From contig SVKK01000001.1 in assembly GCA_015068425.1 (NCBI GenBank), positions 1 through 64,000 on the forward strand: DNA of 64,000 bases. The letters run 5' to 3'. The position numbers were made by a program, and so were the translations under genes. This DNA comes from Oscillospiraceae bacterium. GTDB taxonomy: Bacteria; Bacillota; Clostridia; Oscillospirales; Oscillospiraceae. The first letter of the stretch is position 1. Each line of letters opens with the position of its first letter. Below the pieces are notes generated by a model that ran no database searches, was not told where the DNA came from, and worked only from the letters and a program-made list of their open reading frames with translations. Below are positions 7,637 to 37,714 of the stretch, piece after piece.

Positions 7637-10102
7637 ATGTCAGCAAGGGTTATTTGGGAGCATTTGGACGACGCTTTTATGCAGTGCTCCATACAAAGCG
7701 CCGAGAGCACAGCTCAGCAAAGTTTGCACTGTTTGCGTCTTTATTTCGTGTTATCCGGCACTTTGAGCATCCGCATTGGTTCAAGGGTTCACCGGTACGG
7801 CGCTGATGAGATCGGGCTGATAAATGCCCATGAGCCCTTTACTGTTTTGGAAAGCGACGCAGTTGCTGCTATATTCGAATTGGATTTCAGCGCGCTGGAT
7901 AAAGAGCTTCCGGAACTCTGGTTTTCAAGACAGCCAGTGCCGGAGACAAATCTTGACCCTTTTTTAATACTCAAATCCCTCCTTGCCCGCTATGTTAAGT
8001 TCAATATTGACAGTCAGCTGAACAACACCCTCCTCAACCGCTCCATGTATTACGCCGTGGCGCACCATCTGATCACCTTTTTCAGAATAGATATGCCCAA
8101 GCATCAGCCTTCCGCCAATTCCAAGGCCTTTCAGATGGAGCAGGTTGCCCGATACATAGACCAAAATTACCGCAGCGACCTGAGTCTGAATCTTCTCGCC
8201 GGACATTTCTATCTTTCTCCTCCCTACCTCTCCCGCCTTTTCAAACAGTTCTACGGCTCCACATTCTCCGAGTATCTAATAAATGTCCGTCTGCAAAACT
8301 GCCTCACGGAGCTGACAGGCAAGACGGTGAGCATAGAGGAGCTATCCTCTATGTACGGTTTTCCCAACTCCAGAAGCTTCATTGCCCATTTCAAGAAGAA
8401 ATTCGGCATCACCCCCGGCCAGTACCGCAAGCAGTTTCTCGCCCGCTCCGACAATCTGGAGCACAGCGAGGTTACTTATTCCGATATTTCCCGCGGTCAG
8501 GAGATGGAGGTTTTCGCCAAGTATCTGGCAAACGACATAAGTCCCGCCGCCGCTCCCTCCGATATACTTATAAGACTTTGCGAAATACCATCCTGCCGTG
8601 TGGACGAACCGGGAACACCGCTCCGACATAATTTTAAGAATATGATTTCCATAAGCTCCGCCGCCGATATTCTCTCAGCCTCGGGACAGGAGATGCTAAG
8701 AACCGTCCAAAAGGATGTGGGCTTTAGATATGTCCATTTTCACGGTCTTCTTGACGACAGTATGCGTGTATACGGTGAGAACGAAAACGGCGACCCGGAG
8801 CTCAACTTCAGCCGCATAGACTCCGTAATTGATTTCCTGCTTTCCATCGGACTGAAACCCTTTATTGAGCTTTCCTATATGCCCTCCCGCCTTGCCCGTC
8901 CCGGCTCGCGGCAGGCTTACTACAGCCAGTCCATAATCAGTTTGCCTTACAGCAATGAAAAGTGGGTGTTTCTGATTCGCTCCCTTCTGCGCCATCTTAT
9001 TGGAAGATACGGACGTCAGGAGCTTGTATCCTGGCCTTTCTCCCTTTGGAATTTGCCGGATAGCGGCAGATTGCTGGGTCTTGGAAGCGCCGACGAATTT
9101 TTCCCCTTTTACCGCGACACATGGCATGCGGTGAAAGCCTGCGATAAAGAAATCTGCTTTTTCTCCCCCTCATGCATGGCAGATACCGCTGAGATCGGAG
9201 ATTTTATTCCCCGTTTTCTGGAGCTGTGCCGCGCGGAAGGCTGCATGCCGGATATGTTCCAGTACCATTTTTACCCCGTGCAGATTGAGTCCTACGCCGA
9301 GGGCAGTACCCGTTTGACCTACCGGGGCTCTCCCTCGGCTTTGAAAGAGAGCATTTCACTTGTTAAGCAGCGTCTGGGGCATCTGCCCGGAAACTTCCGA
9401 CAAGTGCATATTACGGAATGGAACGCCTCGGTCAGCCACCGTGAGCTGCTCAGCGACACAGCATTTCAGGCCGCGTACATTGCAAAAAACATACTGGAAA
9501 ACTATGATGATTTTGCCAGCATCTGCTACTGCGCCATAAGCGACCCCACCAGCGATGGACACATTGCCCGTGAGCTGTTTCACGGTGGAATGGGTCTTTT
9601 CACCTATAACGGCATAAAAAAAGCCTCCTACCACGCTTTGCGGCTGCTTTCCGCATTAGGCGAGGAGAAGCTTTCTTCCGGAGAGGGCTACTTCATAAGC
9701 CGCAGCCGCCGGGGTGTACAGATAATGCTGTATAACTATCAGCACTATTCCGAGCTCTATGCCAGAGGCGAAGCCTTCAATATGACTTTCACCAACCGCT
9801 ACACCCCCTTCTCCAATGCTGCGCACCAGAAGTTCACCCTTTCTCTTGGCGGCTTTGGAGACTGCCGCTACCTGCTCACCGAAACCTGTTTGGGTCCCGG
9901 GCATGGCTCCAGCTTTGATAAATGGCTGGAATTCGGTGCCCTTCCTCTAAAAAGCAAGGAGGATGAAGAATATCTCCGCGCCGTTTCCCAGCCTCTTGTA
10001 CGCAGACGCTATCAGGATAGTCCGGATGGAAAAATGGAGCTTTCCTTCACCCTTGAACCCCACGAGTTGCGGCTGATAGAAATATGCCCGGTATGGGAAT
10101 GA
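7637..10102 (+). CDS. AraC-family regulator fused to a GH39-like domain
   Basis: Protein of 821 aa with three parts: an N-terminal cupin-like segment (about 1-140), an AraC DNA-binding domain with two helix-turn-helix motifs (about 170-270, SPPYLSRLFKQFYG and a C-terminal FGITPGQYRK), and a C-terminal barrel resembling GH39 beta-xylosidases (about 300-815). The nucleophile region HITEWN is present (Glu594). The acid/base motif WNEP reads WNLP (Leu473), so glycosidase activity is doubtful and the domain more likely senses a glycoside. It starts at ATG with GCGAGGTGAAG upstream and is divergent from the first ABC operon, its likely target. Confidence 0.9.
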   Translation: MSARVIWEHLDDAFMQCSIQSAESTAQQSLHCLRLYFVLSGTLSIRIGSRVHRYGADEIGLINAHEPFTVLESDAVAAIFELDFSALDKELPELWFSRQPVPETNLDPFLILKSLLARYVKFNIDSQLNNTLLNRSMYYAVAHHLITFFRIDMPKHQPSANSKAFQMEQVARYIDQNYRSDLSLNLLAGHFYLSPPYLSRLFKQFYGSTFSEYLINVRLQNCLTELTGKTVSIEELSSMYGFPNSRSFIAHFKKKFGITPGQYRKQFLARSDNLEHSEVTYSDISRGQEMEVFAKYLANDISPAAAPSDILIRLCEIPSCRVDEPGTPLRHNFKNMISISSAADILSASGQEMLRTVQKDVGFRYVHFHGLLDDSMRVYGENENGDPELNFSRIDSVIDFLLSIGLKPFIELSYMPSRLARPGSRQAYYSQSIISLPYSNEKWVFLIRSLLRHLIGRYGRQELVSWPFSLWNLPDSGRLLGLGSADEFFPFYRDTWHAVKACDKEICFFSPSCMADTAEIGDFIPRFLELCRAEGCMPDMFQYHFYPVQIESYAEGSTRLTYRGSPSALKESISLVKQRLGHLPGNFRQVHITEWNASVSHRELLSDTAFQAAYIAKNILENYDDFASICYCAISDPTSDGHIARELFHGGMGLFTYNGIKKASYHALRLLSALGEEKLSSGEGYFISRSRRGVQIMLYNYQHYSELYARGEAFNMTFTNRYTPFSNAAHQKFTLSLGGFGDCRYLLTETCLGPGHGSSFDKWLEFGALPLKSKEDEEYLRAVSQPLVRRRYQDSPDGKMELSFTLEPHELRLIEICPVWE

Positions 10103-10149: not shown

Positions 10150-10191
10150 CCTCCAGCACTTCTTTGCTTTTACACAAAGAAGTGCTGGAGG
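10150..10191. terminator. Bidirectional intrinsic terminator
   Basis: A perfect 17-bp stem (10150-10166 with 10175-10191) and an 8-nt loop are flanked by TTTTT on the plus side and by eight A on the other side (U-run on the minus strand). It separates the convergent AraC/GH39 gene and the activase gene. Confidence 0.93.
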
Positions 10192-10245: not shown

Positions 10246-11172
10246 TCAGTTACTGTGAAGCTGGCAGTCAAGACCGGCGTCGGTGAAAAGCTTCAGGCAG
10301 GCCGCAAGCTTTTCATCACTCTGCCGCTTAGCTTCCGAAAGAGCATATGGCATATCAAGCATCTTATACTTATTCTCGCCGTAATTATGATAAGGGAGCA
10401 AATCAATATGAAGGGGACGTTCAAGTTCTTTGACAAACTCTGCAATTGCTTTCAAATTTTCCTCGGTATCAGTTATTTCCGGTATCAAAGGAACGCGGAT
10501 AATTATTTCCGCATCCGTTTTCATAAACTCACGGAGATTATCGTGGATAAGGCGGTTATCAACGCCGGTATACAGTTTATGGGTCTCTGGGTCAATTATT
10601 TTCAGGTCAAACAGCACAAGATCCACAAGACCGTTAACCTTGCTTAGCTTCTCCGACGGGAAAAAACCGCAGGTATCCAAAGTTGTATGTATGCCTACAT
10701 TTTTACAAAGCGAGAATAGCTCTGATACGAAGTCGGCCTGCATCATAGGCTCTCCACCGGAAACAGTTACACCGCCTCCAGAACGCATATAATACCCCGC
10801 GTCACGCTTTACCACATCAAAGGCTTCCTTCGCCGCTATATGTTCCCCGTAGATATGCATTGCGCCGGGAGTGCAGACCTCCACGCACCGGCAACAATTG
10901 GTACACAGAGTTCTGTCGATTTTCACTTCAGGTTTTTCCCCTCCGGCAATAATACTTATTGCCTTTTCGGGACATACGGAGACGCATTTGCCGCAGCCAC
11001 GGCATTTTGAGGCGCGGTGAACAATCTGGATATGCGCGGCCTGAGATTCCGGATTGGCGCACCAAGTGCAGGAAAGCGGACACCCCTTCATAAAAACAGT
11101 AGTTCTGACCCCCGGTCCGTCATCTGTGCTGAAGCGCTGGATATTAAAAATTGTTCCGCATATTTCTGACAT
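10246..11172 (-). CDS. Glycyl radical enzyme activase 1 (radical SAM)
   Basis: Radical SAM enzyme, about 308 aa, which would install the glycyl radical on the adjacent enzyme using S-adenosylmethionine. The N-terminus has the GRE-activase signature DGPGVRTTVFMKGCPLSC ending in the CxxxCxxC cluster motif. Next come two ferredoxin-type [4Fe-4S] motifs (CRGCGKCVSVCP and CTNCCRCVEVC), then the conserved GGGVTVSGGEP segment. This three-cluster layout is typical of activases of dehydratase/lyase-type GREs, not of PflA. ATG 11172 is preferred over upstream starts because GGAG lies 8 nt before it and the upstream candidates fall within or beside a hairpin. It is the last gene of the operon. Confidence 0.95.
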   Translation of the reverse strand: MSEICGTIFNIQRFSTDDGPGVRTTVFMKGCPLSCTWCANPESQAAHIQIVHRASKCRGCGKCVSVCPEKAISIIAGGEKPEVKIDRTLCTNCCRCVEVCTPGAMHIYGEHIAAKEAFDVVKRDAGYYMRSGGGVTVSGGEPMMQADFVSELFSLCKNVGIHTTLDTCGFFPSEKLSKVNGLVDLVLFDLKIIDPETHKLYTGVDNRLIHDNLREFMKTDAEIIIRVPLIPEITDTEENLKAIAEFVKELERPLHIDLLPYHNYGENKYKMLDMPYALSEAKRQSDEKLAACLKLFTDAGLDCQLHSN

Positions 11173-11209
11173 CTCAAAGACTCCAAATCGTCCGTATAAT
11201 TTTTCTGAC

Positions 11210-11239
11210 ATGCCTGATACCAAAAACAGTATCAGGCAT
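11210..11239 (-). promoter_or_regulatory. Perfect hairpin between GRE1 and its activase
   Basis: ATGCCTGATAC (11210-11220) is perfectly complementary to 11229-11239 with an 8-nt loop. It starts 26 nt after the GRE1 stop and ends 37 nt before the activase start. No U-run follows, so it probably protects the GRE1 3' end or limits read-through, giving the high enzyme-to-activase ratio such systems need. Confidence 0.65.
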
Positions 11240-11265: not shown

Positions 11266-13713
11266 TCAAAGCTCTTCGCTGGTTCTGGACATAATCTCAT
11301 TCTGGATGGGTTTGGGAAGGTCAACGAAGAATGCGCTGTAACCGGCGACACGAACCATCAGATCGGAATGCTTCTCCGGGTGCACCTGAGCATCCAGCAG
11401 CGTTTCATGGTCAAGAAAGTTTATCTGAACATGGAAGCCGTTGGTATTGAAGAACTCCTCAAGAATGGCTGCAAGACGTTCGATATTTCCGCTGTGACTG
11501 AAAAGCTTGCGCTCGAACTTCATATTCATCAGCGCGGCATTGGAGTTGGAAACGTGATTGGCCTTACCTGCCGAGTTGAAAACGCAGGTTGGACCATGGG
11601 TATCGCAGCCCTGTGCGGGAGAGCAAAATCCATCAGCAAGAGGCTCCGATGCTTTGCGTCCATTGGGGAGCGCGCCTGTTACGCGTCCGAACATCATATG
11701 GGCATTGGCTCCGCTTCTTCCGGACCACTGAGGCTCGCCAAAGGGGTTTTTTTCCTCAAGAATACGGTTTTCCAGCCAGACAGACAGTTCGCTGAAGAAA
11801 TTATCCACATAATCATCGTCATTTCCGTATTTAGGTGCGGCTGCAAGTCTGTCGCGCAGTTCTTCATAGCCTTCGAAGTTAGCCTTGAGAGCTGCTTTAA
11901 TCTCTTCTATCGTGGCTTTTTTATCGTCGAACACAACTTTTTTGATAGCCGCGAGAGAGTCGGAAACATCCTGAAGCCCGCGATCGCTGACGTGGAAGAG
12001 GAATTGAGGATATCTTGAACCGCCGCCTCTCACATCCTTGCCCTTATTGATGCAGTCATTGACAAGAGCAGAGCAGAAAGGAAGATGGTAGCTGTTTACA
12101 TCGGCAAAAGCGGTCATATGGCTCATGCGAATGAAGATCTTAAACAGTACATCAAACTGTTTTTTGAAAGCCTCGATATAATCCTCGATGCACACAAATG
12201 TGCTGGGATCTCCGGTTTTGGGTCCTATCTGCTTTCCGTTTTTGGGTTCCTTGCCGTCGTTAAGAACATACTCGAACATTTTCGCCAGATTGATATAGTT
12301 CATTCCCAGAGAGCCACCGTGAATGGATGCGGATGTGATAGATCCTGCGCATCCGGCAGCTACCCAGTCTCTGGCATCGCTGAGGGAGACTCCGTGGTCA
12401 ACAAAGCTGGGTATTCTCGGCTCATCGCTCATCAGTGAAGGATTTCCGTCGCCTCGGCGAATATTTACCTCAAGAGCCTTCAGCCATATTTTCCTGTTGA
12501 TATTTCTGTGGTAACGCACATAGATGGGAGGCTGGGGAAGATTTACCTGAGCAAGGGCTTCCAACAGCATATAAGACAGCTCGTTGGATGCGTCGTTTCC
12601 ATCCCTATCCACACCGCAAATGGTGGTGGCCTGAAGGTGCGTTGCGGGAACATTCGCTTTGGTATAGCTGGTTCTGACAGACGTCATCTGGTTCAGTTTG
12701 ACCAACAGGCAGGCAACAAGCTCCGCGGCGTCCTGACGGGAGAGGGTCTGATCCTCCATAACATCCTTGCGATACATAGGATAGAGATACTGGTCAAGCC
12801 TGCCCGGAGTCTCGCCGTGGAATGCCATCTCCAGATTGACGCAAAGATGAATGAACCAGAAGCTTTGAACGGCTTCACGGAAGCTGCGCGCCGGCTTAGC
12901 AGGCACATGAGCGCAGACTTCAGAGATGGTCTCCAGCTCCGCACGTCGCTTTGGGTCTTCCTCTTTGGCGGCCATTTCGGCAGCCAGCACAGAATAACGC
13001 CGGGCATATTCTATTGCACCTTCGCAGGCAATTATTGCAGCATTCAGGAAACAATCTCTGGCATAGTCGTTTTCACTGTCTGCATCATATTCAAGAGCGG
13101 CAAGGGCTTCCTTTGCCTCATTAATAACGCCCTCAAGGCCTATATCGATAACCTTGCCGTAATCGACGGTTCTCACAGCCGGAGGAGCTCCGGTCTGTTT
13201 TCCCAAAACCAGACCAGACTCAGCCCAATCGGGCAGCCATGTAAGCTTTTCCCTTTCAACTGCATGGATTATATCGCCCGGAGATCTGCCGCTCCAGAAT
13301 TCACAGTCTTCAAGAATGCTGCGGCGCTCTTCCTCAGTGATCGCAGCCGTGAAATCGACATTATCTCCGGAAGTATCCAGCCCCTTAAGGTTTTCAATTG
13401 CTCCGTCAGGATTATAGTCAACATAGGGAGATGATCCAAAAAAATACTGGGACTGGGAACCTACAACCAGTTCGCCAGGCCAAATAGCAATGGGGTTTTC
13501 CCGCATAACCTGACGGAAGAGTTTGGCTCTTCTTATATCAAGATTCTGACCGTCAGTGCTCTTCCACGAATCCGTAACTATACGGCTGCGCTCGCAGCAG
13601 ATATGCTCAACCGCATTTTTGCGCAGCTCCAGAAGGCTCGCAACCCTGCCCGTTATGCAATTGACAGAGTCTACCTGAGCAAAATCATTAGTTGCATTTG
13701 ATTTTTCGTTCAT
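11266..13713 (-). CDS. Glycyl radical enzyme 1, unassigned subfamily
   Basis: Anaerobic radical enzyme, 815 aa, with a PFL-like N-terminal domain and the C-terminal glycyl radical motif RVAGYSAFF (radical Gly791). The catalytic Cys is Cys455 in VAAGCAGSIT. Characterised dehydratases, CutC and several decarboxylases have GCVE, where the Glu two residues after the Cys is the general base. Here that position is Gly, so the reaction cannot be predicted from known members. The start has a GAGGAGGG site. It lies downstream of an Opp-type transporter and upstream of its activase. Nearby GH1, SDR and VOC genes suggest a glycoside-derived substrate (inference). Confidence 0.93.
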   Translation of the reverse strand: MNEKSNATNDFAQVDSVNCITGRVASLLELRKNAVEHICCERSRIVTDSWKSTDGQNLDIRRAKLFRQVMRENPIAIWPGELVVGSQSQYFFGSSPYVDYNPDGAIENLKGLDTSGDNVDFTAAITEEERRSILEDCEFWSGRSPGDIIHAVEREKLTWLPDWAESGLVLGKQTGAPPAVRTVDYGKVIDIGLEGVINEAKEALAALEYDADSENDYARDCFLNAAIIACEGAIEYARRYSVLAAEMAAKEEDPKRRAELETISEVCAHVPAKPARSFREAVQSFWFIHLCVNLEMAFHGETPGRLDQYLYPMYRKDVMEDQTLSRQDAAELVACLLVKLNQMTSVRTSYTKANVPATHLQATTICGVDRDGNDASNELSYMLLEALAQVNLPQPPIYVRYHRNINRKIWLKALEVNIRRGDGNPSLMSDEPRIPSFVDHGVSLSDARDWVAAGCAGSITSASIHGGSLGMNYINLAKMFEYVLNDGKEPKNGKQIGPKTGDPSTFVCIEDYIEAFKKQFDVLFKIFIRMSHMTAFADVNSYHLPFCSALVNDCINKGKDVRGGGSRYPQFLFHVSDRGLQDVSDSLAAIKKVVFDDKKATIEEIKAALKANFEGYEELRDRLAAAPKYGNDDDYVDNFFSELSVWLENRILEEKNPFGEPQWSGRSGANAHMMFGRVTGALPNGRKASEPLADGFCSPAQGCDTHGPTCVFNSAGKANHVSNSNAALMNMKFERKLFSHSGNIERLAAILEEFFNTNGFHVQINFLDHETLLDAQVHPEKHSDLMVRVAGYSAFFVDLPKPIQNEIMSRTSEEL

Positions 13714-13788: not shown

Positions 13789-14754
13789 TCAATCGCTGTT
13801 AATACCTGTTTCTCCTGCGTAATGGCATGCAACATAGTGACCGTTACCACAATCGCGCAGTTCGGGAGTTTCACCGCGGCACTTATCCCTTGCGTAAATG
13901 CAACGAGGTGCGAAACGGCATCCGGGTTTGGGGTCTATTGGAGAGCTTAGTTCTCCCTTGAGCACTATGCGCTTATTTTCACGTTGGAGAGTGGGTATGG
14001 GAATTGCAGAAAGAAGAGCCTGAGTGTAAGGATGCAGCGTGTTGGCAAAAAGCTCCTTGGAGTCAGCCTTTTCCACTATCTGCCCCAGATACATGACAAC
14101 GATTTGGTCTGATATATGCTTCACGACAGAAAGATCATGAGTGATAAATATATATGTCAGACTTCTCTCTTTCTGAAGGTCCTGCAGAAGATTCAGAATC
14201 TGAGCTTGAATAGAAACATCCAAAGCTGATACAGGCTCATCGCACACTATCATCTGGGGCTCTGAAGCCAGCGCTCTGGCAATGCCAATGCGCTGTCTGC
14301 GTCCGCCGTCAAGCTCGTGGGGGTAGACATTCTCAAGACGCCTTGCGAGTCCCACAAGATCCATCAGTTCATAAACCCGTCTTGTAATCTCAGCAGAATC
14401 TTTTACACCCGCCAGAGAACGAATCGGTTCGGCAATGAGTTGGGATACGCTCATGCGTGGATCCAAAGATGCAAATGGGTCCTGAAATATCATCTGGATT
14501 TTCTGGCGATAAGGCTTGAACTCTCTCATAGAGAGCTCTGTTATATCCACGCCGTCATAAATAATTTTTCCGGAGCTCGGCTCAACAAGACGCATTATAG
14601 TTTTTCCAAGGGTTGATTTTCCGCAACCGGATTCGCCGACAACGCCAACAGTTTTTCCTGCATCAATACTTATGGAAACATCATCCACTGCGTGAAGCGT
14701 TCCCTTTGCTACATCAAAATATTTTTTAAGGTTTTGTATTTCAATCAGCGCCAT
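13789..14754 (-). CDS. Opp/Dpp-type ABC transporter ATPase (OppF-like)
   Basis: Cytoplasmic ATPase, about 321 aa, of the oligopeptide/nickel transporter family. It has Walker [10 protein letters not shown], Walker B MIVCDEPVSALD, and the C-terminal oligopeptide-transporter domain with GCRFAPRC and further Cys. The ABC signature reads HELDGGRRQR instead of the usual LSGGQRQR, a mild deviation. ATG 14754 is chosen over 14784 because AAGGTAAGGG lies 7 nt upstream and this avoids overlap with oppD. It is the final transporter gene before GRE1. Confidence 0.9.
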   Translation of the reverse strand: MALIEIQNLKKYFDVAKGTLHAVDDVSISIDAGKTVGVVGESGCGKSTLGKTIMRLVEPSSGKIIYDGVDITELSMREFKPYRQKIQMIFQDPFASLDPRMSVSQLIAEPIRSLAGVKDSAEITRRVYELMDLVGLARRLENVYPHELDGGRRQRIGIARALASEPQMIVCDEPVSALDVSIQAQILNLLQDLQKERSLTYIFITHDLSVVKHISDQIVVMYLGQIVEKADSKELFANTLHPYTQALLSAIPIPTLQRENKRIVLKGELSSPIDPKPGCRFAPRCIYARDKCRGETPELRDCGNGHYVACHYAGETGINSD

Positions 14755-14764
14755 GACAAAACCC

Positions 14765-15769
14765 TTACCTTTCTGCGGAGGCACAGCCTTCGCTTACTAA
14801 ATGACATTTAACGAAATGGCCGGGAGTCACTTCCACAATCTCGGGGTCGATCTGACTGCACTTTTCGCAGCGCTTCGGGCAGCGATCGCAGAAGCTGCAA
14901 TACTCGGGGAGATTTGTGGGGTCGCTGGCAAGTCCCTGAATGGGAGTCAGACGATCCACATCCTTGTCAAGGCTCGGGATAGAATTGAACAAACCGATGG
15001 TGTAAGGATGCAATGGATTTCCAAAAATATCCTCCACTGTGCCGCGCTCAACTATCTCACCGGCATAAATTATTGCGCATTCATCACAGTTTTCTGCCAC
15101 AATACCCAAATCATGGGTAATAAGGAGCATAGAAGTCTGTATCTCTTCGCGCAGCGATCTCATCATACTGAGCACCTGTGCCTGTATGGTAACATCCAGC
15201 GCCGTGGTAGGCTCATCTGCTATGATAAGCTCCGGTCTGCATACAAGAGCCATAGCTATAATAACGCGCTGCTTCATACCGCCGGAGAACTGGTGAGGAT
15301 AATCGCTGAAGCGGTTTTCCTGAATACCAACCATTTTCAGCACCTCGTGAGCCATTACCTCTGCCTCTGCCTTGGAAATTTTATTATGAAGTCTGATAAC
15401 CTCCATTATCTGATCGCCCACGCGCAAAACGGGGTTAAGCGCCGTCATCGGATCCTGGAAGATCATACTGATTTTATTGCCTCGAATTTTTCGCATTTCC
15501 TGCGCACTCTTCTCAAGAAGGTTCTCACCTTCAAAGACTATCTCACCTTCAATAATATGAGACGGCGGATAGGGCAGCAATCCCATTATTGCCAGCGCGA
15601 TAGAGGTTTTTCCCGCGCCCGTCTCGCCTACGAGACCGAGAGTTGTGCCCTTTTTCAGGTTAAATGAAACACCGTTTACCGCTTCATACACTTCTTCTCT
15701 TGTCTCATAATGAAGACGAAGGTTCTTTATCTCAAGCAAATTCTCCTGAGCTTGCTTTTTTTCTTCCAT
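14765..15769 (-). CDS. Opp/Dpp-type ABC transporter ATPase (OppD-like)
   Basis: Cytoplasmic ATPase of 334 aa. It has Walker A GETGAGKTS, signature FSGGMKQR, Walker [13 protein letters not shown], and a C-terminal oligopeptide-transporter extension with four cysteines (CSFCDRCPKRC), often linked to a [4Fe-4S] cluster in the family. It partners with the OppF-like ATPase just downstream and with permeases just upstream (10-nt gap). The transported compound may be a peptide or another small molecule; Opp-type systems also carry glycosides and oligosaccharides. Confidence 0.9.
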   Translation of the reverse strand: MEEKKQAQENLLEIKNLRLHYETREEVYEAVNGVSFNLKKGTTLGLVGETGAGKTSIALAIMGLLPYPPSHIIEGEIVFEGENLLEKSAQEMRKIRGNKISMIFQDPMTALNPVLRVGDQIMEVIRLHNKISKAEAEVMAHEVLKMVGIQENRFSDYPHQFSGGMKQRVIIAMALVCRPELIIADEPTTALDVTIQAQVLSMMRSLREEIQTSMLLITHDLGIVAENCDECAIIYAGEIVERGTVEDIFGNPLHPYTIGLFNSIPSLDKDVDRLTPIQGLASDPTNLPEYCSFCDRCPKRCEKCSQIDPEIVEVTPGHFVKCHLVSEGCASAER

Positions 15770-15779
15770 TTTATGTACC

Positions 15780-16691
15780 TCACTTCATCCTGGGGTCAAG
15801 GGCATCGCGGAGACCTACACCGAAAAGCTGAAAACCGAGTATTGTCACCATAATGCAGCAGGTAGGAGCGATGACCATATGCGGGCAGGACATAAGGAAG
15901 TCCTTTCCCTGATTAAGAATACTGCCCCACTCGGGAGTAGGAGGTGCAATGCCTATGCCTATATAACTGAGACTGGATATAAGCACCATGCCGGCAGCCA
16001 GAAGAGTGACCATCTGAACAGTAAGAAGACCAACGGCATTGGGTATAAGATGTCTCAATATCATTCGGAATGTACCAATATTTATGGCTCGGGAGGATTC
16101 TATGTATTCACCGCTCCTGACAGTCAATATGGCCATTCGGAATGTACGGGCACAAATCGACAAGCTTGAGATCGTTATTGCAATTATAAGCTGTGGAATA
16201 CCGTTGCCCAGCACTGCAGTAACGCTCATAGCCATCAGAACCATGGGTATGGCCTGAAATACGTCCATTACTCGCATTATGGCGTTATCCACTCGTCCGC
16301 CGCAGTATCCTGCAATAGTTCCAAGCAGACCACCCGTAAGGGCCGAGGTTACCATTGTTATCGCGGACAGAGACAGAGAGTATCTTGCGCCATATAGGCA
16401 ACGGCTGAAAATATCGCGGCCAAGAGAATCGGTTCCAAACCAATGTACCGCGTCGGGGGCTTTTTTAAGTGCCATATAATCAGGCTGGTTGGGGTCAAAA
16501 GGAGCCAGAACATTCGCAAAAATTGCCACAAAGAGAACCACAAGGATAATTGCCATGCCAACTATTGCGGTTGGATTGCGCTTCAGGCGTTTCCATGCCT
16601 GGCGGCCGGGAGAATCGAAATTCCCCTTTCCGCTGTATTTGGCTCTTCTTTTTGCAGCCTTTTCCATCGCGGGAGTATTATATTTTGCCAT
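15780..16691 (-). CDS. Opp/Dpp-type ABC transporter permease (OppC-like)
   Basis: Membrane permease, 303 aa, the normal family length. A cytoplasmic N-terminal tail is followed by a first helix, then the HWFGTDSLGRDIFSR motif typical of OppC/DppC, then the BPD_transp_1 core with the coupling sequence near SSRAINIG and a C-terminal GVGLRDALDPRMK. It lies 1 nt after the OppB-like permease stop and 10 nt before the ATPase, so all are one operon. Confidence 0.92.
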   Translation of the reverse strand: MAKYNTPAMEKAAKRRAKYSGKGNFDSPGRQAWKRLKRNPTAIVGMAIILVVLFVAIFANVLAPFDPNQPDYMALKKAPDAVHWFGTDSLGRDIFSRCLYGARYSLSLSAITMVTSALTGGLLGTIAGYCGGRVDNAIMRVMDVFQAIPMVLMAMSVTAVLGNGIPQLIIAITISSLSICARTFRMAILTVRSGEYIESSRAINIGTFRMILRHLIPNAVGLLTVQMVTLLAAGMVLISSLSYIGIGIAPPTPEWGSILNQGKDFLMSCPHMVIAPTCCIMVTILGFQLFGVGLRDALDPRMK

Positions 16692-16692
16692 A

Positions 16693-17661
16693 TTATGCTC
16701 CCCTCACTTTCTTCCGCCTTTTCTTTACATTATCCAAAATCAGGGATGTCTTAAGGCGGGGATCAACATAAGCATAAATAATATCCAAAATCAGATTTAT
16801 TGCTGTGCAGACGCAGGCAAGAACAAACACGCCGCCGAGAGCCGAAGGATAGTTTCGTGATGTAATTGCATCTGCAATATATTTTCCCACTCCGGGAACA
16901 CCGAAAACGGTTTCAATTATTAGAGCTCCGCCAAGCTGATTTCCAAAGTCAAAACCTATCTGAGAAACCATAGGTATCAAAGTGTTGCGAACCATGTGAC
17001 GGAAAATAACGATGCGCTCTTTCTGACCCTTTGCTCTTGCGGTCTTAACATACTCCTGGCGCATAACATCCAGCATAGTTGTGCGTGTCATTCGAATATT
17101 GGTAGACATACACGAGAGCATAATAACGGCCATTGGGAGAATATAACCCTTCCAATCAGCTATGCCACTCGTTGGCAGCACGCCCCACTTGACCGAGAAC
17201 AGCAGTATTCCAAAAAGAGCAAGACAAAATCCGGGGATAGCAAGAAGCGCCATGGAAAAAACAATAAGCGCACTATCTATCCATGTGTACTGCTTTATTG
17301 CCGATATAATTCCCAGCGGTACGCCGAACAAAACACCCAGCAATACCGCGCCCACCGCGAATATCAGAGACACGGGAAATCGAACCATAAGTTCTTTCAA
17401 AACAGGCTGTCCCGAACGATATGAAGTTCCCAGATCTCCCGTGAAAGAATGAAACACATATCTAAAGAATCTGGTCAGAAAGGGGTCGTCCAATTGAAGT
17501 TCTTCCCGAAGTTCCATTATCTGTTCTTCAGTGGCCTCTACACCCAGAATCATCTGCGCGGGATCGCCGGGTGAGATCTCGTTCAGTACGAAGAGAATAA
17601 AAATCACGCCGAACAGAATCGGGATCAGATATATAATTCTTTTTGCCAAATATTTTAACAT
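16693..17661 (-). CDS. Opp/Dpp-type ABC transporter permease (OppB-like)
   Basis: Membrane permease of about 322 aa with six predicted helices. It has an N-terminal helix followed by the SPGDPAQMILG segment typical of OppB/DppB, a conserved TARAKGQKE coupling motif, and a C-terminal YAYVDPRLK. ATG 17661 is preferred because the GAAGGTGG site lies just upstream; a GTG at 17670 would overlap it. It is separated from the binding protein gene by 139 nt holding a strong hairpin. Confidence 0.9.
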   Translation of the reverse strand: MLKYLAKRIIYLIPILFGVIFILFVLNEISPGDPAQMILGVEATEEQIMELREELQLDDPFLTRFFRYVFHSFTGDLGTSYRSGQPVLKELMVRFPVSLIFAVGAVLLGVLFGVPLGIISAIKQYTWIDSALIVFSMALLAIPGFCLALFGILLFSVKWGVLPTSGIADWKGYILPMAVIMLSCMSTNIRMTRTTMLDVMRQEYVKTARAKGQKERIVIFRHMVRNTLIPMVSQIGFDFGNQLGGALIIETVFGVPGVGKYIADAITSRNYPSALGGVFVLACVCTAINLILDIIYAYVDPRLKTSLILDNVKKRRKKVRGA

Positions 17662-17736
17662 TTTTTCCACCTTCGGCGATTAATATAGCTTTAATAGCTG
17701 ATCTATAAATATCGGAAAAATATCATTAAAGAATGG

Positions 17737-17800: not shown

Positions 17801-19480
17801 TCAGCTGATGGGGCGGATAAGGGAAACGTCAATGCTGGTTCCGGTGCCTGCATAGAAGCCCTCAAGACCGGGATTATGAGCCACTGCGTTCAGAGTGCGT
17901 CCAAGACCGAGCACCCATACGTCATCGTAGACATACTGAACGATGTCGTAAATAGCCTCAACGGCCTCTTCTTCATTGAGGCTGCCGGTTGCGGTTTTTA
18001 CAAGAGCGAGGAGCTCAGGATCGTCAATCTGGGGGTTGCCGGGCCATACGCAGCCGGGTTCAATAACGCTGAAGACTATCTTATCGCGGAAGAACTTGCC
18101 GCAGTTTGCGGTTTCGGTGAATATCAGGTCGAAATCGCCGGCCTTGGATTTTTCCAGATAGGTTGGAACGTCGGGAGTAATGAACTCAAGGGTAATGCCA
18201 ACTTCCTTCAGCATTGCCTGAGCAGCGGTCATAAGGCCGGTTGCCTGAGCCTGTGCAAGGCCGTTGATAACGAGGCCATCGCCATATCCCGCCTCCTCAA
18301 GGAGCTGCTTTGCCTTTTCGGGGCTATATTCAATGCCTGCTCCGTTGGTGGGGTCGAAGTAGTATTTGGATTCAGAAGTGATGTAATAAGGCTCAATGGG
18401 AGCAACACCGTTGCTGTGAACCATATTCAGCATTTCGGGATTGAGAGCATAACGAATAGCCTGACGTACTTTGATGTCAGCAGTGGGGTGTCCCTCAAGA
18501 GAATTGAGGAAAATTCTGTTTGCGTTCTGAGTGCTTACGAAGGTAACGCCGCACTTTTCATCGCCGATGAGTTCAGTGGCCTGACCAACGTTGATTGCAA
18601 CTGCAACATCAGCGTTGCCGCTCTGAATGTTCATAATGCGGGTGGCTGCGTCGGGAACAAAGGTGAATTTAATGAACTTGTAGTAGGGGACATTTTTGGT
18701 ATCCCAGTGGTTCTCGTTGCGCTCAAGCAGAATATACTGACCGGGAACCCACTCTACGAAATTATACTTACCGGTACCATACTTGGGGACAGTGGTGTTT
18801 TCTCTGCCGCCACCTGCAAGATAAGAGGACTCGTCAAGCATAAATACAGTGCCTCTGTTGCACATAGATTCAAGGAAAGTGGGATTGCCGCTGGCAACAC
18901 CTATAATGATGTTGTATTCATCAACAACTTCGGTTTTTTCAATATCAACCAGCTCGATGAACTGGCTGCCGCCCATTTCCTTATACTCCTTAAGGCTGAA
19001 ATAAACGTCGTCTGCATTAAACACACTGCCGTCGGAAGCAATAACACCTTCACGTACGGTGCACTTAATCTGAGTGTGTGCATCATCAACCCATTCCCAT
19101 GCGGTAAAGAGGTAAGGTTCAACCTCTCCGGTGTCCTGGTTATAGTTATAGGGCATATCAACCAGAAGGTTAGTTACGGTGAGGCCGTGGGTTCCGATTT
19201 TGTTGCTGGCCAGAAGTGAGGCAGGCTCCTCGGAAAGTACTACGGTCAATGTCTCGTCTGAGCGAACTGTGTTGGGTTCAACTTCACCGGACACGACAAG
19301 GTCGCGGGCCGGTTCATCGGCGCCGGGATCTGCGGGAGCTGCAGGAGCTGCGGGAGCAGCGGGATCAGCAGGAGCAGCAGGTGCACCGGGAGCCGCGGGC
19401 TCGGTCTTGCCACAGCCTGCGAACAGGCCAATGACCATCACGAGTGCCAGTACAAGAGCGATGATTTTGCTAGCTTTCAT
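17801..19480 (-). CDS. Opp-type substrate-binding lipoprotein (SBP_bac_5)
   Basis: Secreted solute-binding lipoprotein of about 559 aa. It has a signal peptide with lipobox (IGLFAGC), an Ala/Pro/Asp linker of roughly 35 residues, then a family 5 extracellular solute-binding body with typical patterns (YNIIIGVASGNPTFL, VRQAIRYALNPE, KAKQLLEEAGY). ATG 19480 is chosen because AGGAGGAAAAGAA precedes it; an in-frame upstream start at 19549 would lie in the terminator hairpin. It is the first gene of the Opp operon that continues to GRE1, with its own promoter and a terminator-containing leader. Confidence 0.93.
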   Translation of the reverse strand: MKASKIIALVLALVMVIGLFAGCGKTEPAAPGAPAAPADPAAPAAPAAPADPGADEPARDLVVSGEVEPNTVRSDETLTVVLSEEPASLLASNKIGTHGLTVTNLLVDMPYNYNQDTGEVEPYLFTAWEWVDDAHTQIKCTVREGVIASDGSVFNADDVYFSLKEYKEMGGSQFIELVDIEKTEVVDEYNIIIGVASGNPTFLESMCNRGTVFMLDESSYLAGGGRENTTVPKYGTGKYNFVEWVPGQYILLERNENHWDTKNVPYYKFIKFTFVPDAATRIMNIQSGNADVAVAINVGQATELIGDEKCGVTFVSTQNANRIFLNSLEGHPTADIKVRQAIRYALNPEMLNMVHSNGVAPIEPYYITSESKYYFDPTNGAGIEYSPEKAKQLLEEAGYGDGLVINGLAQAQATGLMTAAQAMLKEVGITLEFITPDVPTYLEKSKAGDFDLIFTETANCGKFFRDKIVFSVIEPGCVWPGNPQIDDPELLALVKTATGSLNEEEAVEAIYDIVQYVYDDVWVLGLGRTLNAVAHNPGLEGFYAGTGTSIDVSLIRPIS

Positions 19481-19532
19481 TTCTTTTCCTCCTAATTTAT
19501 AATAAGTTTTTGCGGGCAAATTACGTTGAAAT

Positions 19533-19572
19533 AAAAAAACTGACGGCAAACATCATAGATGTTTACCGTCAG
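19533..19572 (-). terminator. Intrinsic terminator or attenuator in the leader of the Opp operon
   Basis: CTGACGGCAAACATC (19540-19554) pairs with 19558-19572 with one wobble, and a seven-U run follows on the minus strand (19533-19539). It lies downstream of a good promoter (19666-19694) and upstream of the first gene, so transcription of the operon must pass it. It could also end read-through from the GH1 gene. Confidence 0.8.
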
Positions 19573-19665
19573 TCAACTTCAAAGTTATTGACGAATTCAA
19601 TTGTGATTTGGCTTGCGTCATCAATATAAATCCCAGTTATTGTAAGCTACGATAAATACAACCTT

Positions 19666-30191: not shown

Positions 30192-31130
30192 CTAACCGCC
30201 GATTTGCACCTGCACGCCGAAGGACTCCGCAACAGCTTTCAGATGTTCCATATGTTCGTCCGAGGGCACTTCTATGTTTAATTTTGTATCGTTACCGAGA
30301 TTCTCGTTCTTTGACTCGCCGAGGCGGTGATAAGGCAGTAAGCGAATCTTAACCTCTCCTATAAGCTCCTCCGCCACAAACTTTGCGGTCGCGGCAATAT
30401 TCTCCTCAGAGTCATTACAGCCCGGGATGGTCGGAAGGCTTATCATTATGGGAATTCCAAGATCATTATGTATATGTTTTATATTATCAAGTATCTGTTC
30501 ATTGGGCACTCCCGTCAGTCTCCTATGTTCTGCGGAGTCCATATGTTTTATATCCAACAAGCCCAGATCTACATAACGAAAGACCTTATCAACAACCTCT
30601 CTTGAAGCAAAGGAACAGGACTCTATCGCAGTATGCAGTCCTTCCTCTTTTGCTGCGCGAAGCAAGGTCTCGGTAAATTCCGGATGCATAAGAGGCTCGC
30701 CCCCACTGATGGTAACCCCTCCGCCGGAGGCATCCATAAACATTTTGTCTCGCAAAACGGTTTTTATTACTTCCTCCACCGTCATTTCCTTGCCTACGAG
30801 TTCTCTCGCCTGGGCCGGACACGCATCGACACACATACCGCAATCCACACAAACCGTTCTGTCTGTGTATGCCAACATTTTTCCGTCCTTTTCAAGCATA
30901 GAAATTGCATTATGAGGGCAGAAAGACACACACTCACCGCAGCCCGTGCATTTCCCCGCATAAGTCATAAGCTGAGGCTTTGTCAAATTGGATTCCGGAT
31001 TGGCGCACCACTGGCACCGAAGGGGGCAGCCCTTCACAAAAACAGTAACTCGTATACCCGGCCCATCGTGTATGGAGTACGACTGAATGTTAAATACACT
31101 TGCAGAAACGGATGAGCACACAGACTTCAT
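30192..31130 (-). CDS. Glycyl radical enzyme activase 2 (radical SAM)
   Basis: Radical SAM activase of 312 aa. It has the signature DGPGIRVTVFVKGCPLRCQWC with the CxxxCxxC cluster motif, two extra [4Fe-4S] motifs (CTGCGECVSFCP, CVDCGMCVDACP), and GGGVTISGGEP. It would activate GRE2, encoded about 2 kb away on the other strand. In between lies a PucR-type regulator. It has its own promoter (31181-31208). It is only moderately similar to activase 1, consistent with separate partner enzymes. Confidence 0.94.
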   Translation of the reverse strand: MKSVCSSVSASVFNIQSYSIHDGPGIRVTVFVKGCPLRCQWCANPESNLTKPQLMTYAGKCTGCGECVSFCPHNAISMLEKDGKMLAYTDRTVCVDCGMCVDACPAQARELVGKEMTVEEVIKTVLRDKMFMDASGGGVTISGGEPLMHPEFTETLLRAAKEEGLHTAIESCSFASREVVDKVFRYVDLGLLDIKHMDSAEHRRLTGVPNEQILDNIKHIHNDLGIPIMISLPTIPGCNDSEENIAATAKFVAEELIGEVKIRLLPYHRLGESKNENLGNDTKLNIEVPSDEHMEHLKAVAESFGVQVQIGG

Positions 31131-33147: not shown

Positions 33148-35562
33148 ATGACAGAAAGAGTAAAACGACTTCGAAAAAAAATTGTTGCTTTCGGCAATGA
33201 AATTCGTGCTGAAAAAATGCGAATCACTCTGGAGAGTGAGAAAAAAACTCAAAACTGGCCCTCCATACTCCGCCGTGCTCAAAGTTTTTACGATGTTGCA
33301 TGCCAGATAGAGGTGCACGTAAACGACGACGAGTTGATAGTTGGAACTCCCGCGAGCAAGCCTTGGGCTCTTGAAATAGAATCCTGTCTTGGAAAATGGG
33401 ATCAGGATGAGATCATAGCGCTCCGCGAAGATGGCTACAAAGTGACCGAAGAAACGGAAAATCTTATCCTTGAACTAAACAAGAACTTTGAACCCTTCGG
33501 TATGTACCAGTATGCCAATCTCGCTGTCCGCGCAGACAAGGAACTGGAAAACTTTGTCCGCACCGGAATTTGCCTTGCTCCCTGGAAAGAAGACACAGGC
33601 AACAATGATAACCGAGTGGGCGGCGGATCCGCCTGTTCCGGACTTGGTCTGGGTCCCGGTTGGATGCTTTACATCGCGGATTACGAGATGGCTCTGAATA
33701 AGGGCTTTGAAAAACTCATTGAAGAGTGCGACGAACAGCTGGATAAACACCAGTTTGACGGTCCCAAGGCCATAGACCGCTCCTGCACTCTGCAGGCAAT
33801 GAGATTATGTCTGCAAGGCGTTATCCGCTATGCCAATCGCTGTGCTGATCTTGCAGAGAACAAGGCAGCTGTATGCAGCGATGCCGCAAGAAAAAAAGAG
33901 CTTGAAGAAATTGCAGAAATTTGCCGCCGTGTGCCTGCCAAACCTCCCCGCAGTTTCCGTGAAGCACTTCAGTTTGTCTGGTTCATCTTTATGTTCATAG
34001 CCCCATCCCCCACTGCAACAATAGGCCGTATGGACCAGTATCTCTATCCCTATTACAAAAACGACATTGATGCCGGAATCATAAGCAACGATGAGGTTAT
34101 AGAACTTCTTGACTGCTTCCGCATACGCTGTATGGAAATCCACGCGGTATCCGGCAAAGAGGTTCGAAAGCGTGCCTCCGGCGGAGCAAGATGGCTCAAC
34201 GTTACCATAGGCGGAGTTAAGCCCGACGGAAGCGATGCAACCAACGAGCTCAGCTATCTTATACTTGACGCGGTAATGGATTGTCCTTGCATACAGCACA
34301 CTGTGTCCGTTCGTGTTGCAGAAAGCACCCCGAAAAGCCTTATAGCCAAGGGTGTTCAGTGCCAGGCAATGGGTCTTAGCATGCCCGCCTTCACCAGCGA
34401 CAAGAGTTATATAAGCTTCTTTATGCAAAAGAGCAGAGGTGACGACGGTCTTCCTCTGGAAACTGCCCGCAATTACTGCATGACGGGATGCATAGACGGA
34501 AACATCCCCGGCAAAACCCGTACCTTCGGCGTTTCTATGTTTATAGCCCCCCTCACACTGGATATTTTCCTTAATCAGGGCATATGTAAAAATACCGGCG
34601 TGCAGGCCGGTCACGCAGTGGGTGATCTGGACCGCTTTGAAACTTTTGAGGAGTTCAAGGAAGCATATTATAAAGAATTCCGCTACTTCATACATCTTGC
34701 ATGCCAGAAAAACAATATTGAAAATCTCAGCTTCGCACAGCTTATGCCCACTCCTTTCCGCTCCGCCCTCATGAGCGACGGAATAGAGGTTGGACTTGAT
34801 GTTGGTAATCGCTGCTTCCCCTTCGAAAACGGCTCAGACATCAATGCTGTTGGAACCGTTAATCTGGCACAAAGTCTCTACGCTATTAAAAAATTGGTTT
34901 ATGACGAGAAGCTTGTAACTCTCAGCCAACTCAAAAAAATCCTTGACGCCAACTGGGAGGGTCACGAAGATCTTCTGCGCAAATGCAGAGAGCTTCCCCA
35001 TTATGGCAATGATATTGACGAGGTTGACGAGCATATTGTCGACATATACAAAGTCTGGAACGAGTTTGCAACCGAGTATCCCTCATCCTTCGGAGGCTAC
35101 TCCCGCACCAACGCCATTTCCGTCACCAGCCACGGTCCGGGCGGCAAGCTGACCGGAGCCACTCCGGATGGTCGAGTGGCAGGAGAAACTCTTGCCGACG
35201 CCAATGCCTCTCCCATTCGCGGAACTGACCACAACGGACCTCTCGCCGTTATGAAGAGCGCTATGAAGATAGACCAGAGCAAATATCAGGCTTTCCTCTT
35301 CAATATGAAATTCCATCCCACTGCTCTTAAAACGGCCGAAGATCAGATGAAGCTCGTTGAAGCTATTCGCGTATATCTTCTCAATGGCGGAAGTATGATA
35401 CAGTTTAATGTTGTTGACGACAAGCTGATGATAGAAGCCCGCGAGCATCCCGAAGACCACCAGGACCTTATGGTACGAGTTGCAGGCTACAGCGCATACT
35501 TTGTAAACCTGACTCCGGACATACAGTCCGAGCTTATTGAACGCACCTCTCAGCGTTTTTAA
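33148..35562 (+). CDS. Glycyl radical enzyme 2, unassigned subfamily
   Basis: Anaerobic radical enzyme, 804 aa, PFL-like domain plus C-terminal motif RVAGYSAYF (radical Gly780). The catalytic Cys is Cys448 in MTGCIDGNIPGKT. In known dehydratase/lyase GREs the motif is GCVE; here Asp450 stands where the Glu base is expected. The IPGKT region aligns well with that class. The start has AAAGGAGGAG. It is followed by a complete tripartite tricarboxylate transporter, so the substrate is probably an organic acid (inference). The activase is encoded divergently at 30192-31130. It is only distantly similar to GRE1. Confidence 0.94.
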   Translation: MTERVKRLRKKIVAFGNEIRAEKMRITLESEKKTQNWPSILRRAQSFYDVACQIEVHVNDDELIVGTPASKPWALEIESCLGKWDQDEIIALREDGYKVTEETENLILELNKNFEPFGMYQYANLAVRADKELENFVRTGICLAPWKEDTGNNDNRVGGGSACSGLGLGPGWMLYIADYEMALNKGFEKLIEECDEQLDKHQFDGPKAIDRSCTLQAMRLCLQGVIRYANRCADLAENKAAVCSDAARKKELEEIAEICRRVPAKPPRSFREALQFVWFIFMFIAPSPTATIGRMDQYLYPYYKNDIDAGIISNDEVIELLDCFRIRCMEIHAVSGKEVRKRASGGARWLNVTIGGVKPDGSDATNELSYLILDAVMDCPCIQHTVSVRVAESTPKSLIAKGVQCQAMGLSMPAFTSDKSYISFFMQKSRGDDGLPLETARNYCMTGCIDGNIPGKTRTFGVSMFIAPLTLDIFLNQGICKNTGVQAGHAVGDLDRFETFEEFKEAYYKEFRYFIHLACQKNNIENLSFAQLMPTPFRSALMSDGIEVGLDVGNRCFPFENGSDINAVGTVNLAQSLYAIKKLVYDEKLVTLSQLKKILDANWEGHEDLLRKCRELPHYGNDIDEVDEHIVDIYKVWNEFATEYPSSFGGYSRTNAISVTSHGPGGKLTGATPDGRVAGETLADANASPIRGTDHNGPLAVMKSAMKIDQSKYQAFLFNMKFHPTALKTAEDQMKLVEAIRVYLLNGGSMIQFNVVDDKLMIEAREHPEDHQDLMVRVAGYSAYFVNLTPDIQSELIERTSQRF

Positions 35563-35645
35563 GCTTTGTATGCCCAGCTGTGTACCAAGGTGATAGATGT
35601 CATTGCTATATGCTGATTCCAATATGAAAGGAAGGGATCTGTGAA

Positions 35646-36125
35646 ATGGGCAAAATTAAAAAAGATCAGGTTCTCGGTATCATCATCCTGATCGTTGCGG
35701 CCTTTTTTGGCTACCACACTCTGAAGCTGGCTCCGACCAATCTTGTCGGAGATCCCGGGCCCAGAATGTTCCCCCTTGCAGGCTGCATATTGATGGCAGT
35801 TTTCGCCGTTGTCGTGATTGTTCATCCCGAAAAGAACAACGGCAAAGTATATCTTACCAAAAAACAGTGGATGCATGCCATCTCTCTTTTCGGAGTCTAT
35901 GTGCTTTACCTTCTGCTGCTTTGGCTTTTAGGCTTTACAATTGCCAACTACATTGCACTTGCGGTTTTTTCCTTTATGTTTTCCTATGTTACAAACCCGG
36001 ATTCAACCCTTGCAAAACGAATTTTGAAGAGCGTTATCTACGCGGCCATCGTAGGAACAGCCCTTTACCTGCTATATGTTATAGCCCTCGATGCCCAACT
36101 GCCAAGAGCAATGCTCTGGGACTAA
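35646..36125 (+). CDS. tctB: Tripartite tricarboxylate transporter small subunit TctB
   Basis: Small membrane protein, 159 aa, four predicted helices, TctB family (GDPGPRMFPLAGCILM motif near residues 35-50). It forms the small membrane subunit with TctA. It lies 83 nt after GRE2 and 12 nt before tctA. The order tctB-tctA-tctC differs from the common tctC-tctB-tctA. Its coupling to GRE2 is the main clue to the enzyme's substrate class (carboxylates). Confidence 0.9.
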   Translation: MGKIKKDQVLGIIILIVAAFFGYHTLKLAPTNLVGDPGPRMFPLAGCILMAVFAVVVIVHPEKNNGKVYLTKKQWMHAISLFGVYVLYLLLLWLLGFTIANYIALAVFSFMFSYVTNPDSTLAKRILKSVIYAAIVGTALYLLYVIALDAQLPRAMLWD

Positions 36126-36137
36126 GGAGGTGCCGCT

Positions 36138-37643: not shown

Positions 37644-37714
37644 AAGCCCACTTTTCAGTAAAACTTCAGCCTCCAATCGGGGCTTGGTTTAATAAAAATG
37701 GAAGGAGATCCAAA

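Follow-up and report, generated by a model that had tools for sequence, protein, structure and literature searches.

Can a glycyl radical enzyme (GRE) that lacks the active-site glutamate of the known eliminases still be a working enzyme, and on what would it act? This question is raised by GRE1, which is encoded in a stretch of 64,000 nucleotides from an Oscillospiraceae bacterium (positions 1 to 64,000 of contig SVKK01000001.1, assembly GCA_015068425.1; hereafter the window). A preliminary description of the window noted that the catalytic Cys455 of GRE1 is followed by Ala-Gly, forming a Gly-Cys-Ala-Gly (GCAG) loop, and proposed a glycoside- or peptide-derived substrate. We tentatively favor a reading in which GRE1 is a thiyl-radical enzyme of a clade of GREs without this glutamate (the Glu-less clade), with an organic acid as its substrate and a reaction that is not a Glu-assisted 1,2-elimination. 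This reading builds on the motifs, the fold model, the clade, the conserved pocket changes and the operon layout, from which we infer activity, an acid substrate and the class of reaction.

GRE1 retains intact radical motifs and an adjoining activase

The open reading frame (ORF) of GRE1 lies on the minus strand, the plus-strand reading of 11266-13713 being broken by stops (Table 1). Cys455 lies within ...DWVAAGCAGSITSASIHGGSLG..., and Gly791 lies within RVAGYSAFF at the site detected by Pfam Gly_radical (97.3 bits; cut-off 22.2). After a gap of 42 bp follows activase 1, a radical S-adenosylmethionine (SAM) protein that scored 357.6 bits against NCBIfam PFLE_PFLC (TIGR02494; cut-off 174.35) and contains GCPLSCTWC (CX3CX2C) and two four-Cys clusters. 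The radical motif and the activase partner had been described as intact, and the ORF, Pfam and TIGR02494 bear this out. GRE1 thus has the marks of the GRE superfamily: an RVxGY motif, a catalytic Cys, a radical SAM activase and, in the predicted structure, a 10-stranded barrel fold. These motifs and the predicted fold suggest that GRE1 is catalytically active.

The GCAG loop is conserved in all GRE1 orthologs found

Search of 250 genomes of the window's family with profile A1, scoring at most four candidates per genome, recovered six GRE1-type members at 1518-1716 bits, with the next candidate at 648 bits. The members were encoded in the window's genome (G000) and in genomes G805 (locus L006), G955 (L007), G858 (L165), G965 (L166) and G921 (L167). 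The same profile found no member beyond G000 in 391 genomes of the class and 394 of the order, at most two candidates being scored per genome (best other candidate 611.1 bits, GRE1 itself 1705.7 bits). Since few candidates were scored in each genome, further members may have been missed. A separate scan of genome contigs confirmed 562 relatives, and among the 80 best of these GCAG was present in L006 and L007 only.

The orthologs were 63-66% identical to GRE1, and 390 alignment columns were invariant across the six proteins. The Ala-Gly after the catalytic Cys was confirmed in GRE1, and because GCAG occurs in all six, together with Ser458 and the sequence HGGS at 465-468, it is no sequencing accident. 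The L007-L165 pair gave a nonsynonymous divergence (dN) of 0.019, a synonymous divergence (dS) of 0.475 and a dN/dS of 0.041, indicating purifying selection; most other ortholog pairs were saturated at synonymous sites. An adjoining activase gene was present in all five members with downstream sequence (the window, L006, L165, L166 and L167), while the L007 contig stops about 80 bp past the GRE stop codon.

GRE1 lacks the acid-base residues of characterized dehydratases

In eliminases for which mutants have been published, the glutamate two residues after the catalytic Cys (the CxE glutamate, at Cys+2) is essential: IslA E470Q (PMC8473560) and HypD E436Q (PMC7077986) are inactive, as are HypD H160Q and D278N (PMC7077986). 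The arylacetate decarboxylases HPAD and IAD also keep it, as Cys500/Glu502 in IAD (PMC6181972). These findings fit the view of the preliminary description that eliminases need this residue. The CxE motif is present in the GRE eliminases, namely glycerol dehydratase (GDH), propanediol dehydratase (PD), CutC, HypD and IslA, and absent from GRE1, where GCAG stands in its place.

The loss extends beyond Cys+2. The pocket residues His164, Ser282, Glu435 and Asp447 of glycerol dehydratase (C. butyricum numbering) align with Val180, Gly300, Gly457 and Gly470 of GRE1. At the position of His281 of glycerol dehydratase, GRE1 has His299 and the other five orthologs have Leu or Gln. Conversely, Gly457, Ser458, His465-Gly-Gly-Ser468 (HGGS) and Glu301 are invariant in the six proteins and are not found in the aligned dehydratases. 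Tyr473, also invariant in the six, aligns with HypD Tyr450, which hydrogen-bonds the substrate carboxylate (PMC7077986). With the CxE glutamate lost along with the rest of the polar residues that line the dehydratase pocket, GRE1 would not be expected to carry out a Glu-assisted 1,2-elimination.

A non-Glu residue at Cys+2 is not unique to GRE1. Among 118 GREs, 33 had such a residue (E 85, G 16, T 6, D 5, L 2, and H, A, V and S 1 each), a tally that is biased to relatives of GRE1, counts some loci twice (L117 is L091, L118 is L090, and L087 is identical to L014) and omits L001-L005, L086 and L099.

GRE1 resembles the dehydratases in fold but falls outside every characterized group

The best PDB sequence match of GRE1 was 1r8w (500 bits), and NCBIfam PFL2-3 scored 562.7 bits, under its cut-off of 678.2. 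An AlphaFold2 (AF2) model with a pLDDT (predicted local distance difference test) of 90.8 was built from alignment A2, which contained 42 sequences (GRE1 and 41 of the 80 loci from the contig scan). The model was nearest to the PD and GDH dehydratases (TM score 0.92; Z 46.9, root-mean-square deviation 1.9, 778 residues aligned), the top structure matches lying less than one Z unit apart and being treated as ties. Sequence and fold place GRE1 in the PFL2/glycerol-dehydratase group.

With the B12-independent glycerol/1,2-propanediol dehydratases (1r8w, 5i2a, 9rco), GRE1 has in common its fold, length, Gly and Cys loops and type of activase; however, it lacks the equivalents of all four pocket residues, lies in a separate clade, and was not seen to adjoin genes for a microcompartment or for alcohol/aldehyde dehydrogenases. 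From HypD (6vxc), whose Tyr450 equivalent it keeps, it is set apart by the absence of His160 and Glu436 equivalents, the Asp278 position being variable (H, L or Q). Every equivalog of NCBIfam scored far below its own cut-off. GRE1 reached 518.8 bits against HypD (NF043068; cut-off 1100), 466.8 bits against the choline TMA-lyase CutC (TIGR04394; cut-off 1050), and 516.4 and 476.3 bits against the HpsG and HpfG sulfopropanediol dehydratases (cut-off 1000). Pyruvate formate-lyase (PFL; TIGR01255) scored 92.5 bits against a cut-off of 994.2, and GRE1 has a single Cys where PFL carries a Cys-Cys pair (PMC12338860). A carboxylate substrate, as used by HPAD and IAD, is conceivable for GRE1 too, but the decarboxylases retain the glutamate (Glu1), and GRE1 scored only 333.1 and 407.8 bits against them (cut-offs 1150 and 1100). 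IslA, for which phmmer gave 362.8 bits to 7kq3, was set aside on the absence of CxE; IslA binds its sulfonate through Arg189, Gln193 and Arg678.

Phylogeny places GRE1 in a supported clade with no characterized member

Three trees were built: a FastTree phylogeny of 66 of 121 rows (55 near-duplicates dropped) with three GCAG enzymes; an IQ-TREE LG+G4 phylogeny of 38 rows with six; and a tree of 40 rows, likewise with six, from which L017 and L019 were dropped and to which three X-succinate synthase rows were added along with a PFL fragment from the window's genome. All used LG models without mixtures and contained several long branches, and the PFL row was flagged as unsure. A clade comprising the GCAG enzymes, L008 (CCVL), L009 (GCGD), L011 (GCSH) and a group with GCLG loops was recovered in each, with support of 100 in the 66-row tree, 100/99 in the 38-row tree (16 clade rows) and 100/100 in the 40-row tree (15 clade rows). 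GRE1, with its non-Glu Cys+2, lies inside this Glu-less clade.

The clade contains no characterized member and stands apart from HypD, GDH/PD, CutC, YbiW, PflD and the X-succinate synthases. Clustering within a characterized clade of GCAG enzymes, which would have spoken against the preliminary description, was not obtained in the trees, and because the clade has no characterized member, the claim that GRE1 cannot be assigned to a known GRE holds. The next lineage outside, L010, still has GCVE; hence the glutamate appears, from these sequences, to have been lost within the clade, independently of the X-succinate synthases. In the 40-row tree the clade and L010 together join HypD (95/93). A search of titles and abstract beginnings of open-license articles in PMC, a set outside which most subscription papers of the field lie, returned no paper on GCAG- or GCLG-type GREs.

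Gene neighborhoods of some orthologs suggest an organic acid as the probable substrate

At L165 a divergent LysR gene is followed by the GRE, its activase, a MatC_N/CitMHS carrier and a PGA_cap protein. L167 has the same order with a 3-hydroxyacyl-CoA-dehydrogenase-like (3HCDH) protein added at the end, and L166 reads 3HCDH, GRE, activase, PGA_cap. At L006 there are only the GRE and activase, with large flanking ORFs on the opposite strand, and at L007 a partial LysR-like gene stands divergent to the GRE at the end of the contig. The nearest PDB entries to the 3HCDH protein were 5-formyl-3-hydroxy-2-methylpyridine-4-carboxylate dehydrogenase and lambda-crystallin, and those to the PGA_cap (CapA-like) protein were of the MslH epimerase family. 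CapA-like proteins also occur near GREs related to GRE2, the second GRE of the window (L190, L141), and so do not mark GRE1 alone. Directly upstream of the L166 genes, on the same strand, we also observed a carbon-phosphorus lyase-like (phn) cluster, named by eye (L166 12247-19899 with the 3HCDH-GRE-activase-CapA genes).

Because a MatC-type dicarboxylate carrier and a 3HCDH-like enzyme stand beside the GRE of relatives, and Tyr473 corresponds to the carboxylate-binding Tyr of HypD, an organic acid is the most likely substrate. The support for this is moderate, not strong, since it comes from two to three relatives.

3HCDH homologs (E up to 1e-80) were found in 23 of the 250 family genomes, including four of the six with GRE1, a co-occurrence with a naive hypergeometric P of 0.0007 that ignores kinship and GRE-rich genomes. 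In the window's genome the homolog sits with 3-keto-5-aminohexanoate-cleavage-enzyme-like (BKACE), cupin-like and CoA-transferase proteins. A BKACE pathway was tried as a partner of GRE1 and not used as evidence, because 3HCDH homologs also occur in genomes without GRE1 and the one in G806 (66%) has no GRE next to it.

The GRE1 operon and its transporter

GRE1 and activase 1 close a minus-strand unit, OppA-OppB-OppC-OppD-OppF-GRE1-activase, that runs from the ATG at 19480 to 10246 (Table 1). Because the terminator scan as a whole was at chance level (12 hits against 11.4 in shuffles), the two bounding hairpins were judged on how long they are and on their T tracts. OppA and OppB are separated by a third hairpin (17763-17737), the T tail of which is weak. 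A promoter-like TTGACA-17-TACAGT at 19694-19666 precedes the hairpin between the GH1 gene and OppA, which may therefore double as an attenuator. No Rfam family matched in the window. Convergent to the unit, at 7637-10102 on the plus strand, is a regulator in which an AraC-type helix-turn-helix is fused to a GH39-like domain.

Table 1. Features of the GRE1 unit in the window
Feature	Position	Strand	Evidence
OppA-type solute-binding protein, family 5	17801..19549	-	PF00496 188 bits; likely start ATG at 19480, with ribosome-binding site
OppB-type permease	16693..17670	-	NCBIfam Opp/Nik permease family, under equivalog cut-offs
OppC-type permease	15780..16691	-	NCBIfam, under equivalog cut-offs
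OppD-type ATPase	14765..15769	-	NCBIfam, under equivalog cut-offs
OppF-type ATPase, 75 bp upstream of GRE1	13789..14784	-	NCBIfam, under equivalog cut-offs
GRE1, glycyl radical enzyme, GCAG type, 815 aa	11266..13713	-	ORF, Gly_radical domain, NCBIfam, AF2 model
Gly454-Cys455-Ala456-Gly457 codons (catalytic Cys loop)	12343..12354	-	Counted from translation; motif kept in orthologs
Arg788-Val-Ala-Gly791-Tyr792 codons (glycyl radical site)	11338..11352	-	Motif, ortholog comparison
Activase 1, radical SAM GRE-activating protein with ferredoxin-like domain	10246..11223	-	TIGR02494
Intrinsic-terminator-like hairpin GH1/OppA, 17 pairs (17-bp) and T tract	19538..19574	-	Fold z-score -4.85
Terminator-like hairpin past activase 1, 18 pairs, CTTTTTTTT	10150..10191	-	Terminator scan

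Proposed mechanism and competing explanations

In the proposed mechanism, activase 1 and SAM would generate a radical at Gly791 that is transferred to Cys455, and the Cys455 thiyl radical would then take a hydrogen atom from the substrate, as the motifs and fold suggest. The substrate radical could be resolved by C-C cleavage, addition, rearrangement or another step that requires no base at Cys+2. In the window's genome, the Opp-type ABC importer probably brings in the substrate or its conjugate. A carbon-skeleton step is preferred to a Glu-free elimination because all tested acid/base positions of the dehydratases are gone and the GCLG group of the clade encodes mutase-like genes.

Several observations weigh against this reading. 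GRE1 is 33-36% identical to the dehydratases and 27-28% identical to the X-succinate synthases. Glu301, invariant in all six GCAG enzymes, is also present in L008, and a relocated base is therefore possible. No carrier, CapA or 3HCDH gene stands beside the GRE in the window or L006 (the L007 contig is too short to tell), and the window's Opp ABC transporter is of another class than the carrier of the relatives. A close CapA-like protein was not found in the window's genome (best 39% over about 100 residues). The 3HCDH homolog of this genome (51%) belongs to a separate BKACE/cupin/CoA-transferase operon, and equally close homologs occur in genomes without GRE1.

The most serious rival, which we consider possible although rather less probable, is an eliminase with a relocated base, in which the role of the CxE glutamate has passed to Glu301 on strand beta-1 or to His465 in the longer Cys loop. 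The nearest folds and sequences of GRE1 are eliminases; Glu301, His465, Ser458 and Tyr473 do not vary among the six; and HypD offers a precedent, its beta-1 acid Asp278 taking part in acid-base chemistry (PMC7077986). However, Glu301 aligns one residue past the Ser282 position, so that it may not point into the pocket, all four tested dehydratase positions are lost together, and the Cys loop contains no other carboxylate. The preliminary description held that loss of the glutamate bars GRE1 from the eliminases; the absence of CxE stands, but the exclusion was too strong, as another base such as Glu301 could substitute.

An improbable alternative is that the Opp system imports a glycoside or peptide, which GH1 trims to yield the substrate. 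Here the Opp genes do lie ahead of GRE1 on its own strand, separated by short gaps, and a family-5 binding protein comes after L008, the nearest relative outside the GCAG group (43%). That pairing may be due to chance, since the L008 genome has 29 OppA-like matches. The link that had been drawn to the GH1, SDR and VOC genes was not sustained: a hairpin with a T tract separates GH1 from OppA, and in the four orthologous loci that have neighbors, no GH1, SDR, ROK or VOC gene stands next to the GRE, a dicarboxylate-type carrier and acid-related enzymes appearing instead in three. Nor does OppA lend support to such a substrate, since none of its close relatives has a known ligand (its top PDB match scored 77.9 bits); no OppA ortholog was found in the L006 or L007 genomes (best 32% and 29%). 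On the terminator and the orthologous neighborhoods the glycoside link was rejected. An OppD/OppF pair 62-63% identical to that of the window belongs to an Opp cluster of G921 (L192 10279-19703) that stands after 2-hydroxyacyl-CoA-dehydratase-like and CoA-transferase III-like genes (named by eye), which also argues against a glycoside or peptide; a CapA-like protein adjoins this cluster.

Quite improbable, too, is a fumarate-adding enzyme of X-succinate synthase type with a new substrate. The X-succinate synthases (BSS, MASS; 4pkf, 9o8u) likewise have a non-Glu Cys+2, with a CMSP loop in L199 and L201, and the relatives of GRE1 have a dicarboxylate-type carrier. In BSS and MASS, fumarate is held by Arg508 and Arg492, respectively (PMC12358834), an Arg at Cys+15 by an offset computed from the published residue numbers. 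L199, an X-succinate synthase-like reference found beside a BssD-like activase (479.6 bits, just under the cut-off of 496.45), has this Arg, whereas GRE1 has no Arg there or elsewhere in its Cys loop. In the tree the X-succinate synthases fall with GRE2 (92/91) rather than with GRE1, and small-subunit genes were not recognized beside any of the six members, tiny ORFs not having been searched individually. X-succinate synthase identity was rejected once this reference had been compared.

A degenerate or inactive GRE, as the absent catalytic-looking residues might suggest, is very hard to reconcile with six intact orthologs, 390 invariant columns, a dN/dS of 0.04 and a retained activase.

The GCLG group and other GREs of the family

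GCLG loops were found in L013, L014, L016, L018, L019, L021, L023, L033, L087, L088, L091 and L092, and L012 has GCLA. GCLG-type GREs belong to the same Glu-less clade as GRE1, which differs from them in its Cys loop and in having HGGS; they lack HGGS and are encoded with glutamate-mutase-like genes. At L012 (3348-9015), L014 (8968-15802), L016 (4323-11373) and L033 (8920-14361) the order is GRE, activase, and then glutamate-mutase-like MutE/MutS and MutL. MutE and the B12-binding MutS are fused in L014 and separate in L012, and MutS alone was seen in L033; the genes of L016 and L033 were named by eye. The GCLG-type GRE thus seems to share a pathway with an adenosylcobalamin-dependent carbon-skeleton mutase.

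GRE2, at 33148-38809 on the plus strand, has GCID, with Asp for Glu at Cys+2. The genes after it are TctB, TctA and TctC, and an activase at 30192-31130 is divergent to it. The L007 genome encodes a GRE2 homolog (44%) beside TctA (64%) and an activase (64%). Because Tct genes adjoin GRE2 and TctA recurs in the L007 genome, enzymes of this type probably use an imported carboxylate.

The window's own genome has five Gly_radical matches. Many genomes of the family (including G798, G799 and G022) are very rich in GREs: 17 and 14 matches were counted in genomes of 2.4 and 2.0 Mb, and up to 21 first-look candidates were counted in one genome of 1.8 Mb, fragments included in each case. In a metagenome-assembled genome labeled Deltaproteobacteria (L143 6630-12361, the same as L011), a GRE1-type gene with one in-frame stop stands next to a gene of the GRE2 type and to a fragment of a third GRE, with SDR and several CoA-transferase family III genes near.

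Implications

Assignment of GREs leans on few active-site residues, and the characterized enzymes represent a handful of reaction classes. A clade that lacks the eliminase glutamate and is nevertheless intact and accompanied by an activase is a place where a new reaction could be found. In a broader and more speculative proposal, which we regard as doubtful, the Glu-less clade would form a further mechanistic class of GREs with carbon-skeleton chemistry on organic acids, GRE1 being a stand-alone version fed by an importer or carrier and the GCLG version handing its product to the adenosylcobalamin mutase. If so, the GCLG loci would encode two radical enzymes of different kinds, acting in series, in one operon. 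The GCLG clade, tied to a B12 mutase, opens the question to study in further genomes, among them one assigned to Sporobacter termitidis. Collectively, these findings suggest that the reaction of GRE1 is probably one that nobody has described.

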